From positions 6,014,430 to 6,078,429 of the forward strand of contig NZ_KQ031391.1 in NCBI RefSeq assembly GCF_000966285.1: 64,000 nucleotides of DNA, read 5' to 3'. The notes below the pieces were generated by a model. The model was not told the DNA's origin, searched no databases, and worked only from the letters and a program-made list of their open reading frames with translations. How positions within the stretch are numbered: the stretch's first letter is position 1; every line of letters starts with the position of its first letter. This document shows, piece after piece, positions 53,781 through 64,000 of this stretch. The stretch is from Pseudofrankia sp. DC12 (GTDB lineage Bacteria; Actinomycetota; Actinomycetes; Frankiales; Frankiaceae). The translations under genes were made by a program, and so were the position numbers.

Positions 53781-53858
53781 GTGGCCTTCCTCAGGAGGTG
53801 ACGAGGGCGCTGCGCCCGCGCGGGCGCGGCGCCGGGTGTCCGGCGGTGGCGACGCCGC

Positions 53859-54776
53859 TCATGGCGTCGCGGCCAGGCCCAGGACGCGCGCGGCGTTCTC
53901 CCGCAGGAACTTCGGCCACACGTCGTCCTTCAGCGGGACCTGGCGCATCTCCGTCATGATCCGGTCGAGGGAGAGGCCCATCGGGAAGTAGCCCCCGTAG
54001 AGGATCCGGTCCGCGCCCCGGGTGTTGGCGTAGTCGAGGATCGCCGCCGGGTAGTAGCGCGGGGAGAACGCGCTGGTCGAGTAGTACAGGTTCGGCCACT
54101 TGAGCATGAGCTTCACGGCCAGGTCGGTCCACGGCTCGGCGCCGTGGCGCATCACGAACACCAGCTCGGGGAAGTCGTACATGACCTGGTCGATCAGCTC
54201 GACGCGCTGGCACATCGACGGCACCCGGGGCCCGGCGATGCCGACCGTCACGAAGATGGGGATCCCCAGCTCGACGCACTTGGCGTAGACCGGGTACATC
54301 AGCGGCGCGTCGATGGCGACCTGCGGCGACCCGCCGTGCGGGAAGACGGTGGCGGCTCGCACGCCCCACCGCTCGTGCGCCCGGACGAGGGCGCGAATCC
54401 CGTCCATGCCCTGGTTGGGGTCGCAGGTCCACGAGCCGACGAACCGGTCCGGGTGCTCGGTGAGCGCGCGCTCGGCGGCCTCGGTGTTCGCGCTCGTGCT
54501 GATCAGCGCGGTCTCGATGCCGTGCCGGTCCAGCTCGCCGAGGACGAGCCCGACCGGGTCCTCGTCGTCCGGGAGGTGGCTGGCCGGCACGTCGTGGAAC
54601 ATGTAGGACGCCGGCATCACGAACTCGTCGCGTGACTGCCGGTCACGCAGGGAGGACCGGATCTGCCGGTACAGCGCGGCCGGGTCCTGGGGGAGCCCGA
54701 CCATCGTGTCGATCACGCCGAGGCCGGGCGGCCAGGGCTGGCCGGTCGTGGCGGGGGGCGAGAACGTGGAGACCAC
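53859..54776 (-). CDS. Amidohydrolase-2 family hydrolase
   Basis: 305 residues. It starts STFSPPATTGQPW and has VIDTMVG, then AATVFPHGGSPQVAIDAPLM, VMRHGAEPWTDLAVKLML and ILYGGYFPMGLSLDRIMTEM. The usual DxHxH is not obvious (IDTMVG), so the metal site may be altered. First gene of the leftward operon with the two dehydrogenases. I set the start at GTG 54776, six bases after GGAAGG, rather than the frame opening at 54914, which lies in promoter DNA. Confidence 0.85.
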   Translation of the reverse strand: MVSTFSPPATTGQPWPPGLGVIDTMVGLPQDPAALYRQIRSSLRDRQSRDEFVMPASYMFHDVPASHLPDDEDPVGLVLGELDRHGIETALISTSANTEAAERALTEHPDRFVGSWTCDPNQGMDGIRALVRAHERWGVRAATVFPHGGSPQVAIDAPLMYPVYAKCVELGIPIFVTVGIAGPRVPSMCQRVELIDQVMYDFPELVFVMRHGAEPWTDLAVKLMLKWPNLYYSTSAFSPRYYPAAILDYANTRGADRILYGGYFPMGLSLDRIMTEMRQVPLKDDVWPKFLRENAARVLGLAATP

Positions 54777-54936
54777 CTCGTACCTTCCGTGCCGGGGGTG
54801 CCGCAGCCGGAGCGCGCACCGAAGAGCGGGGCTGGGAGCGCCGCGGTGCCGGCCATCGCGGGTGGCGGCGTCCTGACAGGAGCGGCGGCGGTCGTCCTGG
54901 CTGGATTGACCCAACCATAGCCCGTCCTTACTATCT

Positions 54937-54958
54937 ATGTCGACGTCGATATCGACAT
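54937..54958. promoter_or_regulatory. Inverted repeat (site C) between divergent units
   Basis: ATGTCGA (54937-54943) and TCGACAT (54952-54958) flank CGTCGATA. TTACTATC stands just left, as at site B. It serves the amidohydrolase operon leftward and the LLM remnant rightward. Confidence 0.5.
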
Positions 54959-55002
54959 GTGCACCTTACCCGTGACCGTGGTGTGTGCGGGAGGGTGGGC
55001 GG

Positions 55003-55340
55003 ATGACGACGCAGCAGACCGGCGGTGGCGAGCTCCTCACGGAGCTGGGCTTCTACGCGCTCGCGGGGCACAGGGCGACCCCGCGCGACCCGGCTGGCGA
55101 GGTGCGCCAGGCCGAGCGGCTCGGCATCGGGGCCGCGTTCATCCCGGAGCGGTTCAGCACCAAGGAGGCCGCGTCAACGGCTGGGATCCGGCCGTGCTGG
55201 ACCGGTCTCGCGCCGACCCGTTCGTGAAGGGCTTCCGGGGCAGCCGCGACGCGCACGCTACGCAGGACCAGCTCGAACACGTCGCCACGCTGATCCCGCC
55301 GGACTGGTTGCGCCGGCGTCCCAGGCCGTCAGGCCGGCCG
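55003..55340 (+). pseudogene. LLM oxidoreductase, N- and C-terminal scraps joined
   Basis: ATG 55003 gives ELGFYALAGHRATPRDPAGE and QAERLGIGAAFIPERFSTKE, the start of an F420-type LLM enzyme. After about 57 codons the frame shifts to GWDPAVLDRSRADPFVKGFR and QLEHVATLIPPDWL, which belongs near the end of the same family. About 220 residues are deleted. Confidence 0.65.
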
Positions 55341-55357
55341 GACGAGCGCGCGCACCA

Positions 55358-55626
55358 AGGTATGTCGCGCGTTACGGCGAGGCGCCGCCGCTGTGGCCGA
55401 ACGCGATCCCGGTCCTGGCCTATGACACGGCCCGGGTGCTGGCCGCCGGCCTGTTCCGGGCGCCGACGCTCTCCGGCCCCGGCCTGAAGGAAGGCCTGGA
55501 GCGCATCCGCTTCATGCCGAGCACGACCGGCGGGCCGCGTACGTACATCGCCGAGTCGCCCCACGAGCACGGGATGTTCCGTGGCGACTGGCTGCTCTAC
55601 GGCCGGGTCCGCAACGAGAAGCTGGA
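55358..55626 (+). pseudogene. ABC substrate-binding protein, C-terminal fragment
   Basis: YVARYGEAPPLWPNAIPVLA, ARVLAAGLFRAPTLSGPGLK, IRFMPSTTGGPRTYIAESPH and GDWLLYGRVRNEKLE form the last 90 residues of a Peripla_BP_6-type protein, the family of the gene at 15.9 kb. No N-terminal part is present. Confidence 0.6.
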
Positions 55627-55803
55627 GTGCGGGTCGTCCGGGAATGGCGACGCGGCACCGCGCTCGACGACGCCGTCACCGTCTTCGAAGGCAGGCCGGA
55701 GGATGTCTCGGTCGGCGCCCGCCACGACCCGACCGAGGGCTTCACCCGCGACTTCTTCTACCGGAACGTCGACTTCTACCGCACCGAGAAGTTCCTGCGG
55801 ACG
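55627..55803 (+). pseudogene. Prolyl-oligopeptidase segment, inverted
   Basis: RVVREWRRGTALDDAVTVFE, GRPEDVSVGARHDPTEGFTR and DFFYRNVDFYRTEKFL continue exactly where the leftward S9 fragment breaks off (SLTTSGYP), but on the opposite strand. A short inversion separated them. Confidence 0.6.
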
Positions 55804-56371
55804 GGTAGCCGGAAGTGGTCAGCGAGCTCGGACCGAAGTCGGTGCCGACGTAGACCCGGCCCTCGTCGATCCAGCTGGCCGCGTTCTTGGCCTCGGCCAG
55901 GACGAAGCCGTCCGCCACGAAGGACTTCGTGACCAGGTCGAACTCGCGGACGACCGTGGCGTCCGCGCCGCCGCGGGACAGCTCGACGAGGGCCAGCCGG
56001 TTGCCGGGGCGCGACACCCGCGCGCCGTGCCACACCCAGTTCTCGCCCTCCCGGTCGGCGAGCGCGTCGACGTCGAGGACCACCTCCCAGTCCGGGGCGG
56101 CGTCGCGGTACGACCCGAACGAGGTGCGCCGCCACAGGCCACGCGGATGGGCTGCGTCGCGCCAGAAGTTGTAGAGGTACTCGCCTCTCGTGACCGGGTA
56201 GGGAATCCGGCCGTCCGCGTCGAGCACCTCGCGCAGCTGGTCGCGCAGCTCGGCGAACCTGGCGGACGGGGTGAGCTCGGCGAACGTCCGCGCGTTGCGG
56301 TCCCGCACCCAGGCGAGCGCGGCCTGTCCGAGCACGTCCTCAAGCCAACGATGCGGATCGTCCTGCGCCAC
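55804..56371 (-). pseudogene. Prolyl-oligopeptidase (S9) N-terminal fragment
   Basis: GTG 56371 starts VAQDDPHRWLEDVLGQAALA, the S9 N-terminal signature, followed by the propeller start (YLYNFWRDAAHPRGLWRRTS, VVLDVDALADREGENWVWHG, KSFVADGFVLAEAKNAASWI). About 188 residues remain out of roughly 700, with no catalytic Ser domain. The break coincides with the inverted segment. Confidence 0.7.
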
Positions 56372-56746
56372 CCGCCAAGTCTGCCTGAATATGCCGCCAT
56401 ATCCGACCCGTCCCGCCACGCTCGCCCGCGGCGCCGAGACGGCTGGTTCGCGGGCGAGCATCGCTGTGATCGGTGACCATCCGCGCAGCGTCTCGCGGGG
56501 GCAGGGCGGCGGTTGGGCGGCTCCACCGACGCGCGGCGTGGCCGGCCCCTCGCACATCACCCATGATTGCGCGAGCCTGATCCGCTTTTGTGGCGCGTTG
56601 GGTGTCTTGTCGTTACTGTCTGATTCGTATTCGCCGCCGGTCCTGGGGAGGGGCCAGCCCGACCGCCGCGCGCGTTCGGGTCGGTGGTCGGCGCGCAGGT
56701 CAGATCGTCGCGATGGGTTCTCGCGACCGCACCTGGGCGGGGTCAC

Positions 56747-57496
56747 ATGGGGCAATGGGAAGATCCGTCACCGGACGCGGAGGCCACCGAGGCGTCAGAC
56801 GGCGGCGCTCGCCGAGGCGAGGCCGACACTGTCGACATCCTGCGCGCCGAGGCTCCCAGCACTGGGCGTTTCGACGGCGACCTTTACGACGTCGACCGTC
56901 CGGAGGTCATGGGCTACTGGGAGGGCGAGGTCGCCGGCCACGACGAGGCATTCGTGCCGCGGGCGGCCGGCACCGCCGGGGTGATCCCCGCCGCGGCCAG
57001 GTTCGGTCGCCATCGCGACGAGGACGATGACCCGGCGCACCGGCGGGCCATGTTCGTGTGGCGCTCGGCGGTCGTGACGAGCCTGGTGCTCGTGCTCGTG
57101 CTGATCGTCGTCAGCGTGGTCACCACCATCCACAGCGGCGGTGCCAGGACGGACGCCAGCACGGCGCCGCCAGACAGCTTCGCGAGCGCGGCTGCCTCGG
57201 CCGCCGAGACCGCCCCGGCCGCGGACGCCACGAGCGCGGCGCCGGTGGACGCGGTCCCGCCGGCCGGCGGCCCGGCCCCGGATGGGATCTCGGCCCCGCC
57301 GACGTTCGCCCAACAGGTCGCCGCGGCGGCACCCGGCGGCGCGGGCACCGGATCGGGCGGCGGCGCGGCGCCCGCCCGGCCGAGGCCGTCCGCGGGCCCG
57401 GTCAGCGCCGGGCCGCCCCGGTCCGCGCCCCGGTGCGGCCCCGTCGCCACCGTGCTGTTCCTGTTCTGGACCCTGCTGGGTCTCGGGCCCTGCTGA
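56747..57496 (+). CDS. Single-pass membrane protein with Ala/Pro-rich outer part
   Basis: 249 residues: an acidic cytosolic part (about 105 residues), one strong transmembrane helix (SAVVTSLVLVLVLIVVSVVT, about 108-128), then about 100 residues of Ala/Pro/Gly-rich linker and a final hydrophobic stretch (VATVLFLFWTLLGLGPC). No domain recognised. ATG 56747 has only a weak GGGGCGGGG upstream. Confidence 0.55.
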   Translation: MGQWEDPSPDAEATEASDGGARRGEADTVDILRAEAPSTGRFDGDLYDVDRPEVMGYWEGEVAGHDEAFVPRAAGTAGVIPAAARFGRHRDEDDDPAHRRAMFVWRSAVVTSLVLVLVLIVVSVVTTIHSGGARTDASTAPPDSFASAAASAAETAPAADATSAAPVDAVPPAGGPAPDGISAPPTFAQQVAAAAPGGAGTGSGGGAAPARPRPSAGPVSAGPPRSAPRCGPVATVLFLFWTLLGLGPC

Positions 57497-57511
57497 GCGG
57501 ATTCCCCGCCC

Positions 57512-59927: not shown

Positions 59928-61221
59928 GGGTGCCGAAGGCGGTGGCCTCCAGCAGCGCCCGGTAGACGTGCTCGGGCCGGGTCGCCGGGGTCAGGCCGAC
60001 GATCACTCCGGAGAGGGTGTGGTCGACGAGGATCGACCGGTTGCCGTTCATCCAGTCGAGGGCGAGCAGCCCGTGGGCACCGACCGGCTCGTCGGCGGTC
60101 AGCGCGGTGAGGTGCTGGTGCACCGAGGTCCCGGCGGCCCGCGCGGCGTGGCGGTAGGAGTCGGGCAGGTGGTGCTCGGCCCACCAGGCGAAGATGTCGC
60201 CGACGCCGGACTGGCCGGCCTCGTAGCCATAGCGGCCGACGATGATGCCGCCGTCGACGACGCCGCACATCCCGGGCACGTCGGCGAGCGTGTCGGCGGA
60301 CATGACATGGCAGGTGGACGTGCCCATCACGGCAAGCAGGTGGCCGGGCTCGGTGACTCCCACCGCGGGGGCGCTGACGTGGGCGTCCACGTTGCCGGCC
60401 GCGACGACGGTGCCGGCCGGCAGGCCGGTCCAGCCGGCGGCGCGGGCGGCCAGGCATCCGGCCGGGTCGCCGAGCGGGAGCAGGCGGGTGGACAGGCGGG
60501 TGTCCGCGTAGTCGGCGAATTCGGGGCTGAGGGCGGCGAAGAAGTCCCGGCTCGGGTAGGCGCCGTCCTGGAAGATCCCTTTGTAGCCTGCGGTGCAGGC
60601 GTTGCGGGTCTCGACGCCGGTGAGCTGCCAGACGATCCAGTCGGCGGCCTCGATCCAGCGTTCGGCCGCGGCGTAGACGTCAGGGTCCTCCTCCAGGACC
60701 TGCAGCGCCTTGGCGACCTGCCACTCGCTGGAGATCTTGCCGCCATAGCGGGCGATCCAGGGTTCGGCGCGTTCGTGGGCGAGGGCGTTGACCCGGTCCG
60801 CGTGCGGCTGGGCGGCATGGTGCTTCCACAGCTTCGGCCAGGCATGGGGCCGGTCGGCATAACGGGGCAGCTCGCACAGTGGGGTGCCGGCCGCGGTCGT
60901 CGGGAGCACGGTGCAGGCGGTGAAGTCCGTGCCGACGCCGATGACCCGGGCGGGGTCGACGCCCGCGTCGCGCACCGCCGCGGGGACCGCCGTCGTGAGG
61001 ACCGCGACCCAGTCGCGCGGGTTCTGCAGCGCCCAGTCCGGCGGCAGCGCCCGGCCGCCTGGAAACTGCGCGTCGAGCACGCCGTCGGGGTAGGCGTGCA
61101 CCGCTGTCGCCAGCTCGTGGCCGTCGCGGACGCGGATCACGCTGGCGCGGCCGGACAGGGTTCCGAAGTCGACGCCGACGACGTAGGCGTCCCCGGCGGC
61201 GGGCTCGGTGGTGGCGGTAAT
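59928..61221 (-). pseudogene. araB: L-ribulokinase, 3'-truncated, no standard start codon
   Basis: Phosphorylates L-ribulose in arabinose use. The FGGY N-terminus is clear ([19 protein letters not shown]), as are [49 protein letters not shown] and LLALDWMNGNRSILVD. The frame ends the family match at LLEATAFGTR (59928) instead of about 130 residues later; noise follows to a stop at 59722. Between the araA stop and FGGY no ATG, GTG, TTG or CTG exists; ATT 61221, after GAGGAG, is the only initiator in the right place. Confidence 0.75.
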
Positions 61222-61254
61222 GGCGCTCCTCGCGCGGGATGGGCGGGGCGTCGG

Positions 61255-62198
61255 CTAGCGGCGGCGGTCGAGGCTGAAGTGCAGGTCGTTCAGCCGCAGG
61301 TCCCCGACGAAGGAGCGGACGGTGGTGCCCCCGTCGATGAGCGCCAGCTCGACGCTCGTCATGCTGGCGAACATGTCGAGCATGTCGACGTCCACCGCGG
61401 TGCTCAGGACGGTGTGGTGCGGCCCGCCGGCGGTCAGCCAGCACTCCGCGGACGTGGGCAGGTCCGGCCGCGGGGCCCACACCGCGCAGGCGACCGGAAG
61501 CCTCGGCAGCGCGCGGTCGGGCTCGACGACCTCGATGGTGTTGGCCACCAGCCGGAACCGGTCGCCCAGGTCGCAGAGCCCCACCACGACGCCGGGCCCG
61601 GGCGCCGCGGTGAACCGCAGCCGGACCGGGTCCGCGCCCCCCGATGCTCAACGGGTGGATCTCGACGCTCGGCCGGCCGGCCGCGATCGTCGGGCAGACC
61701 TCCAGCATGTGGGCGCCGAGGATGCGCTGCGGCCCTGGGCCCAGGTGGTAGGTGTAGTCCTCCATGAACGAGGTGCCGCCGGGCAGGCCGGCGCCCATCG
61801 CCTTGACGGCCCGCAGCAGCAGGGCGGTCTTCCAGTCGCCCTCGCCGCCGAAGCCGTAGCCGTCCGCCATCAGCCGCTGTACCGCGAGGCCCGGTAGCTG
61901 GCGCAGCCCGCCGAGGTCCTCGAAGTTCGTGGTGAAGGCGCGGTAGCCGCCGGCGGTGAGGAACTCGCGCAGCCCGGCCTCGACCCGGGCGGCGTAGCGC
62001 AGCGACTCATGTCGCTGTCCGCCGGCGCGCAGCTGGGGCGCGACGGGTCTGGATGTAGCCGAACTCCCGGTCGCCGTGCGCGGCCTGGTTGAGGTTCATG
62101 AAGTCCATGTCGAGGCTGTCCCAGGGCAGCGCCTGGTTGGCCTGGGTGTGCAGGTGCAGGAGCGGCTTGTCGAGCGCCTCCAGGCCGCGGATCCACAT
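61255..62198 (-). pseudogene. araA: L-arabinose isomerase, deleted and frameshifted
   Basis: Converts L-arabinose to L-ribulose. Segments in order: [19 protein letters not shown] to [12 protein letters not shown] (62198 to about 62055); a deletion of about 110 codons; [55 protein letters not shown] and IHPLSIGG; then a sixth G in the run 61637-61642 shifts frame; then [20 protein letters not shown] to the stop at 61255. The metal-ligand Glu and His of [21 protein letters not shown] and [10 protein letters not shown] remain. Its N-terminal 80 or so residues are replaced by LacI sequence. Confidence 0.85.
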
Positions 62199-62882
62199 CT
62201 CCTGGCGCCAGCTCTCCACCCGTCCGGCGCTGTCGAACCAGTCCGCCGGGCCGGACACGTGCCAGACGGTCTCGTGCCCCGCCGCCAGCAGGCACCGAGT
62301 GGCCAGCCGCGCACCCAGCCGCTGGTCGACGGTCACCAACCGGGACGGCCGGGCCGGGTCACCGTCGATGACCACCATCGCCACGTCGTCCGGAACGTCG
62401 TCCAGCGCCTCGTTCGCCGAGACCACCGGCGCGATCACGACGATCCCGGCCACGCGCTGGTCGAGCAGCCGGGCGACGGCGTCGATGATCGACGGCCGGT
62501 CGAGCACCGGCACGCTGGCGATGCCCACGGCGAACCCGTCCGCGCTCACCGCGCGCTCGATGGCCGCGAGCACCGCGGTCGGCCGGTAAAGCGCGGTGTT
62601 CTGGGCGACGATCCCAACGACGTGGGAACGGCCGGTGACCAGCGCCCGGGCGGCCCGGTTCGGCCGGTACCCGAGCTGCTCCATCGCCGCGCGCACCCGC
62701 AGCCGGGTCTGTTCCCTGACGTTCGGGTGGTCGTTCAGCACCCGGGAGACCGTCTGGTGCGAGACGCCGGCCAGCCGGGCGACGTCGGTCATCCCCGGCG
62801 CGCGGCGCGTGGCTGGCCGCAGCGCCGCCTCGCTCTCGCCGAGGCCCGGGCTCGGCTGACCGCCGGTCACGCGTGCGCCCAT
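62007..62882 (-). CDS. LacI-type regulator fused in frame to an AraA segment
   Basis: 291 residues. Residues 28-80 are a LacI HTH and hinge ([40 protein letters not shown]) followed by most of the sugar-binding domain ([60 protein letters not shown]). At 62198 the reading passes without a break from [11 protein letters not shown] into AraA sequence ([32 protein letters not shown]) and ends at a deletion scar. The last third of the effector domain is lost, so DNA binding is possible but sugar response and dimerisation are doubtful. ATG 62882 is the start used. Confidence 0.8.
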
Positions 62883-62960
62883 CCTGCCTGGCTCGGCGTC
62901 TGATCCGGTGCCTGCCTGGGTGCCTCTGCCTGGGTCCGCCCGGACGACTTTTGCCCTGAC

Positions 62961-62976
62961 ATGTTAGCGATCACTT
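62961..62976. promoter_or_regulatory. Degenerate LacI-family operator
   Basis: ATGTTAGCGATCACTT: the left half ATGTTAGCG matches the actinobacterial LacI/AraR style ATGTTAGCGCTAACAT; the right half is eroded. It is 79 bases upstream of the LacI-like start and could be its own control site. Confidence 0.4.
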
Positions 62977-63162
62977 TATCGCCGGCGAATGTCCGAGCGG
63001 CAGTTCGCCGGGATGGTGGGCCGCAAGCCTGGGGGCAAGGGCGCCAGCCGGGTCGCGGCCGCTGAGCCGCGTGCGCCGGTCGTCGGCGCTGCCGTGCAGA
63101 CCTCGACGCGGCGCCGAACTCATCGGACCACCGAGCCGGACTGGTCCGCGCACCGGCGGAGA

Positions 63163-63750
63163 TCAGGGAATCAGCGGTGCACCCAGCACGCCCAGAGCCT
63201 CGTCGAGCAGGCCGAGCGGATCGGGAAGCGACGGGTTGTCGGCCCACCGGCTCATCACCTCGTCGATCACCAGCAGCACCGAGCCGGCGACCAGACGGTA
63301 AGCCATTGGGTCGACGTCGGCGCTGAACCAGGGAGCCAACGCGTCGGCGAGCCGGTCGCGGCTCTTGCGCCGTTCCTCCAGCCAGCGGCCCCGAAGCGCC
63401 GGCGTCTCCCGCAGCAGGAACTGGAAGCCCCGCGCCCGGTCGGGATCGCGGCGGATCGGAGCGAGGACCGCCCGCAGCGCCGAGGTCAGCGCCGCCCGCA
63501 GCGTCTCGTTCTCGTCGCGCCCACCAAGATGGTCGATGACGTCGTCCATCGAGGCGCTGGCGATGGCGGTGACGACGTCCTCCTTGGCCGGGAAATAGCG
63601 GAAGAAGGTCCGCGGAGAGACACCGGCCGCGTCGGCGATGTCCTGCACGGTCGTCGCGTCGTAGCCGCGTTCCAGAAAGAGCCGGCCGGCAGCCTCGGCC
63701 ATCTCCCGCCGCGTCCGGAGCTTGTTTCGTTCCGTTACGCCGGCGGTCAT
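63163..63750 (-). CDS. TetR-family regulator of the adjacent exporter
   Basis: 195 residues. HTH MAEAAGRLFLERGYDATTVQ and DIADAAGVSPRTFFRYFPAK (residues 18-58), then an all-helical ligand domain. The length is standard. It diverges from an MFS gene 140 bases away and the gap holds a GGTGGCA palindrome, so it most likely represses that exporter. ATG 63750 follows GGAG. Confidence 0.93.
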   Translation of the reverse strand: MTAGVTERNKLRTRREMAEAAGRLFLERGYDATTVQDIADAAGVSPRTFFRYFPAKEDVVTAIASASMDDVIDHLGGRDENETLRAALTSALRAVLAPIRRDPDRARGFQFLLRETPALRGRWLEERRKSRDRLADALAPWFSADVDPMAYRLVAGSVLLVIDEVMSRWADNPSLPDPLGLLDEALGVLGAPLIP

Positions 63751-63819
63751 TACCCACTCCTGTCTGGCGCTCAGAGCCGATCGTCTGCTGCGTCACGTCA
63801 CGTTGGCGGCTTCTGCCAT

Positions 63820-63838
63820 GGTGGCATAGGTTGCCACC
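63820..63838. promoter_or_regulatory. TetR operator between regulator and exporter
   Basis: GGTGGCA (63820-63826) and TGCCACC (63832-63838), perfect inverted arms around TAGGT, 70 bases from the TetR start and 53 from the MFS start. Confidence 0.6.
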
Positions 63839-63890
63839 TTGGCGGATCAATCCTCATCGTCGAGCCGCCTGGCCGTAGAGGGGTGCGTGG

Positions 63891-64000
63891 GTGACCAGCC
63901 TTGCCGAGCACGAGCTGACGACGCGGCCGGCGAGATCGACGAAGGCCCAGTGGTCGGTCCTCGTCATCATCGCCTGCGCGCAGCTGATGGTGGTGCTCGA
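63891..64000 (+). CDS. MFS exporter (DHA2 type), cut by the right edge
   Basis: Only the first 36 residues are inside: TSLAEHELTTRPARSTKAQW, VLVIIACAQLMVVLD, ending in the first transmembrane helix whose LMVVLD is typical of EmrB/QacA exporters (…VVLDxTIVNVALP). GTG 63891. With the TetR gene it forms a standard drug-efflux pair. The call rests on few residues and context. Confidence 0.7.
   Translation, partial: MTSLAEHELTTRPARSTKAQWSVLVIIACAQLMVVL

Follow-up and report, generated by a model that had tools for sequence, protein, structure and literature searches.

Three gene remnants and a strand flip at one DC12 locus

The window analyzed here is a stretch of 64,000 nucleotides, positions 6014430–6078429 of the genome of Pseudofrankia sp. 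DC12, a soil bacterium formerly named Frankia sp. DC12. Its genome is a single contig of 6,884,336 bp, the size published under the older name (PMC4541282; PMC9680954, Table 1), and is smaller than those of most relatives in the genus: six of the seven compared have 8.8–11.2 Mb, and the seventh, G007, has 5.4 Mb. Our main comparison genome, G002 (8,815,781 bp), is presumed to be P. inefficax EuI1c, than which DC12 is ~1.9 Mb smaller; the relative G005 is presumed to be Pseudofrankia sp. BMG5.36.

Remnants of three genes lie side by side in the window. The features are as follows, in window coordinates.

55003–55173, + strand: 5' part of a luciferase-like monooxygenase (LLM) gene, 90% to G002 and colinear with it up to 3101504
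55169–55307, + strand: 3'-proximal part of the LLM gene, G002 3102107–3102245, 89%
55308–55331: filler of 24 bp at a 28.3-kb loss, outside the G002-colinear blocks
55332–55357, + strand: 26-bp island of the lost 28.3 kb in its original orientation, 24 of 26 bases equal to G002 3107896–3107921
55359–55628, + strand: C-terminal part of an ABC-type substrate-binding protein gene, 93% to G002 from 3130561
55628/55629: flip junction 1, where the ABC tail meets the flipped S9 piece; the parent sequences have 0 bp in common, and the join reads GGAGT followed by GCGGGTC
55629–55803, + strand: inverted segment of 175 bp from an S9 prolyl oligopeptidase gene, with an open frame (RVVREWRRG...FLRT), G002 3162684–3162510 on the minus strand, 90%
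55803/55804: flip junction 2, where the flipped piece meets the S9 N-terminus; the parent sequences have 2 bp (CG) in common
55804–56371, − strand: N-terminal part of the S9 gene in its original place and orientation, Peptidase_S9_N PF02897, E = 2.8e-21

Alignment to G002 and the seven relatives bears out the three gene pieces and the strand flip that a first-pass annotation had proposed. G002 carries LLM, ABC-binding-protein, and S9 genes in this order over 61 kb, and the pieces in DC12 all keep that order and orientation, except for the 175-bp S9 piece. Between the breaks in the LLM and S9 genes, the alignment spans 61,180 bp in G002 versus 630 bp in DC12. The annotation had confined this gene graveyard to 1.4 kb; it is indeed present there, but it extends further, with more junctions at which DC12 is missing DNA across the window, as described below.

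A Pfam search placed the S9 N-terminal piece alone above the cut-off within the DC12 locus. The remnants below it (both LLM pieces, the ABC tail, and the flipped S9 piece) were identified through DNA alignment, and neither of the LLM pieces nor the flipped S9 piece matched any Pfam family on its own. The intact G002 copies belong to the families Bac_luciferase (LLM), Peripla_BP_6 (ABC), and Peptidase_S9_N plus Peptidase_S9 (S9). No function is expected from the DC12 remnants.

The whole graveyard is also spanned by a 483-amino acid open frame (window 55025–56476, + strand), which reads the ABC tail in frame and then the S9 gene in antisense and has a Peripla_BP_6 match below the cut-off. This frame is probably an accidental product of GC-rich DNA, although it could be annotated as a gene. 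Separately, a DC12 block of ~77.7 kb, running from window 59930–64000 on to genome position 6152108, replaces 4.5 kb of G002 and starts 3.5 kb from the graveyard. No tRNA was found in window 40000–64000.

The LLM and ABC remnants

The LLM gene had been described as missing its middle, which proved correct: relative to G002, 607 bp are gone internally and the frame is shifted, and the end of the gene after PPDWL is absent as well. At the LLM join, CCGCG (5 bp) is common to both parent sequences. The intact G002 copy matches Bac_luciferase (PF00296) with E = 6.1e-42.

A 51-bp stretch (55308–55358) sits at the 28.3-kb loss that separates the LLM and ABC remnants, and most of it is made up of the 24-bp filler and the 26-bp island. 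The island scored 20, compared with at most 15 across the other 1.31 Mb of G002 compared and in 60 control intervals; the match merely equalled the best of 15 random controls that were allowed to overlap the lost interval and became clear once that interval was excluded.

The tail of an ABC binding protein was likewise recovered. It lacks the start of the gene and its last ~8 codons and remained below the Pfam cut-off, compared with an E value of 2.6e-23 for Peripla_BP_6 (PF13458) in the intact G002 copy.

The flipped S9 piece is contiguous with the N-terminus in all relatives

The inverted 175-bp piece matches G002 with E = 9.3e-63, which excludes a chance match, and is 92% identical to G006. 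Next to it, the N-terminal block (55802–56429) corresponds to G002 3162684–3163310 on the same strand with 88% identity. The opposite strand of the flipped segment is thus as originally described, but its start is 55629 and not 55627, two bases later than had been claimed.

The two S9 pieces are contiguous in each of the genus relatives (7 of 7) and align without gaps over 247–248 residues in one open frame (615–758 codons, measured between stop codons or as far as the locus reached), in agreement with the earlier remark that the protein text continues across the flip. We also looked for a relative that carries the DC12 order in a working gene and found none among the seven. Because the pieces are contiguous in one open frame in all of these genomes, the comparison of sequences indicates that the S9 flip is derived in DC12.

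The catalytic Peptidase_S9 domain is present in the G002 copy, and the DC12 locus holds part of PF02897 only. A DNA search with the missing catalytic half returned just 32–50-bp matches anywhere in the DC12 genome, and its relocation elsewhere was rejected on these grounds. S9-family genes as such occur in DC12, with 13 PF00326 matches, 12 of them above the cut-off and none inside the window.

Neither the N-terminal piece (~190 codons) nor the flipped piece (59 codons) contains a stop or a frameshift. The dN/dS of the S9 remnant between DC12 and the seven relatives was 0.32–0.49, within the range of 0.20–0.49 obtained for 21 pairs of intact genes, and the candidate explanation of relaxed selection on the remnant was set aside, as no clear relaxation was seen. 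Judged from these sequences, inactivation of the S9 gene was probably recent relative to the split of DC12 from G002 and G006.

Junction sequences at the flip

The ancestral sequence at the S9 break was taken from G002 and G006 as stand-ins. Beside the N-terminus, it reads GGCTACCC / GCGGGTC, and nothing has been lost or gained there within 1 bp; the two halves of GGCTACCC-GCGGGTC are now distributed over both flip joins. Relative to G002, 31.7 kb are missing at flip junction 1. A search of the DC12 genome with one 20-kb piece of this lost DNA revealed no orthologous copy; its 43 matches were paralog-like, the best being 79% over 0.8 kb.

No single-nucleotide addition was present at the flip joins, and no long homology between the parent breakpoints was found. 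A check for microhomology had been suggested at both ends of the flipped segment; it amounts to 2 bp (CG) at 55803/55804 and 0 bp at 55628/55629. Because the joins have 0 and 2 bp, the flip resembles blunt-type rather than microhomology-driven joining, as far as the sequence of the scar can tell.

The region 53857–57497 lies entirely in G002-colinear blocks, apart from the 51-bp stretch and another of 41 bp. In its present state, this region contains no insertion sequence (IS) or IS remnant at the flip joins, the two leftover stretches being too short. The initial observation that no IS is visible therefore stands, and the repair-based shuffling proposed with it gains support from the lack of room for an IS and from joins of 0 and 2 bp.

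The use of both ends of one S9 cut, each in a different join, argues for a single cut-and-rejoin event. That both break ends can be traced is the main argument for one event with three breaks, with G002 and G006 taken to represent the ancestor, and this reading was weighed against the alternatives below.

A 9-bp perfect inverted pair (55601–55609 and 55853–55861; 22 nt at 73%) brackets the flipped segment, which could suggest that inverted repeats recombined here, perhaps even as a programmed switch that inverts part of the S9 gene. Such a bracketing pair occurred in only 103 of 5000 shuffles of the flanks. The arms stand 19 and 49 bp outside the ends of the segment, however, and recombination between them would turn all of 55610–55852, whereas 55610–55628 and 55804–55852 are unturned; the 9-bp pair cannot explain the flip because the DNA adjoining its arms has kept its orientation. 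In addition, the G002 places of the two arms are more than 31 kb apart, a single orientation is found in all seven relatives, and neither orientation would give a working enzyme, as the catalytic half is absent. No inverted repeats of a site-specific invertible element were found at the ends of the segment, this outlying pair being the sole one. We consider the probability of such a mechanism negligible.

An assembler could also have set the 175-bp segment backwards, the DC12 record having been built from Illumina data as a finished draft, with its 12 contigs in a single scaffold (PMC4541282). The same source gives 657× average Illumina coverage, inserts of 242 bp and 6.5 kb, and a finishing step, which make misassembly of the flip unlikely. 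At that coverage, both joins fit within one average 242-bp short insert. The sole inverted pair around the segment is 9 bp long, and there is no N across 1.2 Mb of DC12 sequence. Taken together, the chance of an artefact appears very small.

Replication template switching would have the fork leave the ABC gene, copy 175 bp of the S9 gene from the opposite strand, and return. Microhomology of 0–2 bp is compatible with this, and the switch point in the S9 gene is a 10-bp palindrome, ACCCGCGGGT, in G002, G006, and G004; just 1.4% of random positions have a palindrome this large within 2 bp. Template switching usually leaves a duplication or a loss, yet here the return point would have to equal the start of the copied piece, with neither. 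The palindrome is absent in 4 of the 7 relatives and was found at 0 of 38 other clean breakpoints, so that we rejected it as a general breakpoint signal despite its position at the S9 break. We regard template switching as rather improbable.

Deletions in the wider DC12–G002 comparison

To place the locus in context, we surveyed a colinear chain of ~760 kb (DC12 5,586,468–6,347,022 versus G002 2,462,046–3,693,030), which was drawn from DC12 5.42–6.62 Mb and contains one 262-kb step in G002. It holds 113 junctions with a length difference of at least 300 bp, at 96 of which DNA is missing from DC12 and at 17 from G002, all 96 being counted relative to G002 alone; polarity by outgroup was established for the flip described here and for two other inversions. 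The net missing DNA amounts to 596 kb in DC12 (231 kb of it in one step) versus 122 kb in G002 (73 kb in one step). Further junctions with DNA missing from DC12 (0.4–2.8 kb relative to the G002 chain) lie within the window.

Window 4592, 11411, 15471, 15551, 26794, 32650, and 44586: DC12-missing junctions
Window 46575, 46714, 48758, 49964, 56430, and 57498: DC12-missing junctions

Short retained blocks are overrepresented: 16 of 95 are below 300 bp, compared with 4.0 expected under random placement and a maximum of 13 in 2000 simulations. Such clustering could stem from selection for certain genes over others. The 47 fillers of 18–700 bp yielded 14 strongly supported pieces of lost DNA, of which 12 keep their original orientation and two are inverted. 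The data do not support a general shattering followed by random rejoining, because 19 blocks below 400 bp are kept in order and the strong filler pieces are 12 in order versus 2 inverted.

These data bear on a reading in which two events produced the flip, namely an inversion (of the 175 bp in place, or of ~32 kb from ABC to S9) and then a deletion ending at the inversion boundary. DNA loss is recurrent in DC12, with the 96 junctions in 760 kb, and the excess of short retained blocks likewise fits repeated deletion. The end of the deletion, however, would have to hit the inversion boundary to the base, with zero leftover bases at either join. We therefore hold this sequence of events to be unlikely, though it deserves consideration.

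Of 223 minus-strand matches between DC12 and G002, 7 lie in the corridor, three strong and four weak (≤87 bits). One of the strong three is the S9 flip itself, and another is a second DC12 flip of like shape, which favors the repair reading proposed below.

5609867–5610069 (genome positions): 203 bp inverted beside a ~640-bp loss, with 0 bp at one join and a filler of ~22 bp at the other

This flip is also derived in DC12, as G002 and G007, the sole relatives with both pieces among the matches listed, are unflipped; the gene concerned is presumably a LacI-type regulator. An 885-bp inversion (DC12 5981259–5982142) was rejected as a DC12 flip: G006, G001, and G004 carry the DC12 order, and the inversion therefore belongs to the G002 lineage.

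Microhomology was scored on 20 of 23 clean junctions, three having been dropped for poor alignment. Twelve of the 20 had no filler, seven had one extra base, and one had two. For the one-base fillers, 7 of 20 is no clear excess over the 20% to be expected if divergence were their sole source. The largest possible microhomology was 0–6 bp, with a mean of 1.75 versus 1.32 when blunt random joins were simulated at 11% divergence, and reached 5–6 bp at 3 of 20 junctions versus ~2% in that simulation. Most of the survey scars thus look blunt, with a minority in which microhomology is possible. At 56 of the 96 junctions, the extra DNA is at most 100 bp, too short for a complete IS.

Discussion

Several illegitimate deletions would have taken out DNA between and within the LLM, ABC, and S9 genes, and the dead locus would be the outcome of erroneous double-strand-break repair. 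For the flip itself, we propose one event with three cuts: one at the 3' end of the ABC gene, a second in the middle of the S9 gene, and a third 175 bp further toward the S9 start. The 31.7 kb bounded by the first two cuts would have been lost, and the 175 bp bounded by the last two would have stayed and been ligated in reverse, giving the present arrangement of ABC tail, flipped S9 piece, and S9 N-terminus. Among possible agents, the Ku/LigD end-joining pathway is the likeliest. We infer both the oneness of the event and the agency of Ku/LigD, and we assign this reading as a whole a probability of about 0.6.

Ku (TIGR02772) and the LigD polymerase (TIGR02778) are above the cut-off in DC12 and in all seven relatives (8 of 8 genomes), and the two genes are 0.4 kb apart in DC12. 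A second LigD-polymerase-like gene (DC12 2985718–2986491) lies away from Ku. With regard to what is expected of Ku/LigD scars, the pathway genes are present, and the joins have microhomology of 0–6 bp without long homology. What counts against the proposed role of Ku/LigD at this locus is that it is drawn by analogy and from the presence of the genes. Some of the survey scars may instead come from microhomology annealing or slippage, because 3 of 20 survey junctions have 5–6 bp and the LLM join has 5 bp.

The analogy is with Streptomyces ambofaciens, in which engineered breaks gave deletions of 191–23,591 bp, scars with 1–6 nt of microhomology in half and added nucleotides in 40%, and an inserted fragment in three clones, of which two (42 or 83 bp) were of nearby origin (PMC5869714). 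These Ku/LigD scars resemble the DC12 locus in deletion size, in having little or no microhomology, and in their short local inserts. In contrast, the DC12 fragment is inverted, comes from the edge of the deletion, and arose in a natural event in which the agency of Ku/LigD is presumed; the word "inversion" is absent from the main text of PMC5869714. A second comparison is Frankia CcI3, another Frankiaceae strain losing clustered genes, whose losses the authors connect with IS clusters and homologous recombination (PMC2770080). Unlike what is described there, the DC12 locus and 56 of the 96 survey junctions have no space for a complete IS.

A literature search for work joining deletion-inversion breakpoint junctions, microhomology, and bacteria returned none; searches on small inversions or template switching in bacterial genomes and on genome reduction by illegitimate recombination gave nothing relevant among the matches listed. 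Complex deletion-inversion rearrangements are known from eukaryotic genomes. As in DC12, they keep an inverted fragment where DNA was deleted, but the present case concerns a bacterial chromosome, a fragment of just 175 bp, and one break without loss.

The locus is a well-preserved example, a fossil, of a known and ordinary repair process, and not a new system. Its use lies in the base-by-base tracing of both ends of one break in a natural bacterial genome, which makes it a useful record of what would be a three-break event. The wider lead is IS-independent genome erosion in DC12. Tentatively, DC12 could be a natural archive of such erosion, with dozens of IS-free and near-homology-free deletions, some of them capturing inverted local fragments, and with end joining as the main engine, a possibility that we put forward with low confidence. 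If it were true, the chief driver of genome reduction in the DC12 lineage would be illegitimate end joining, not IS recombination. Together, the scar and the 96 junctions make Ku/LigD-driven genome reduction in the Frankiaceae testable through a comparison of scars across strains.
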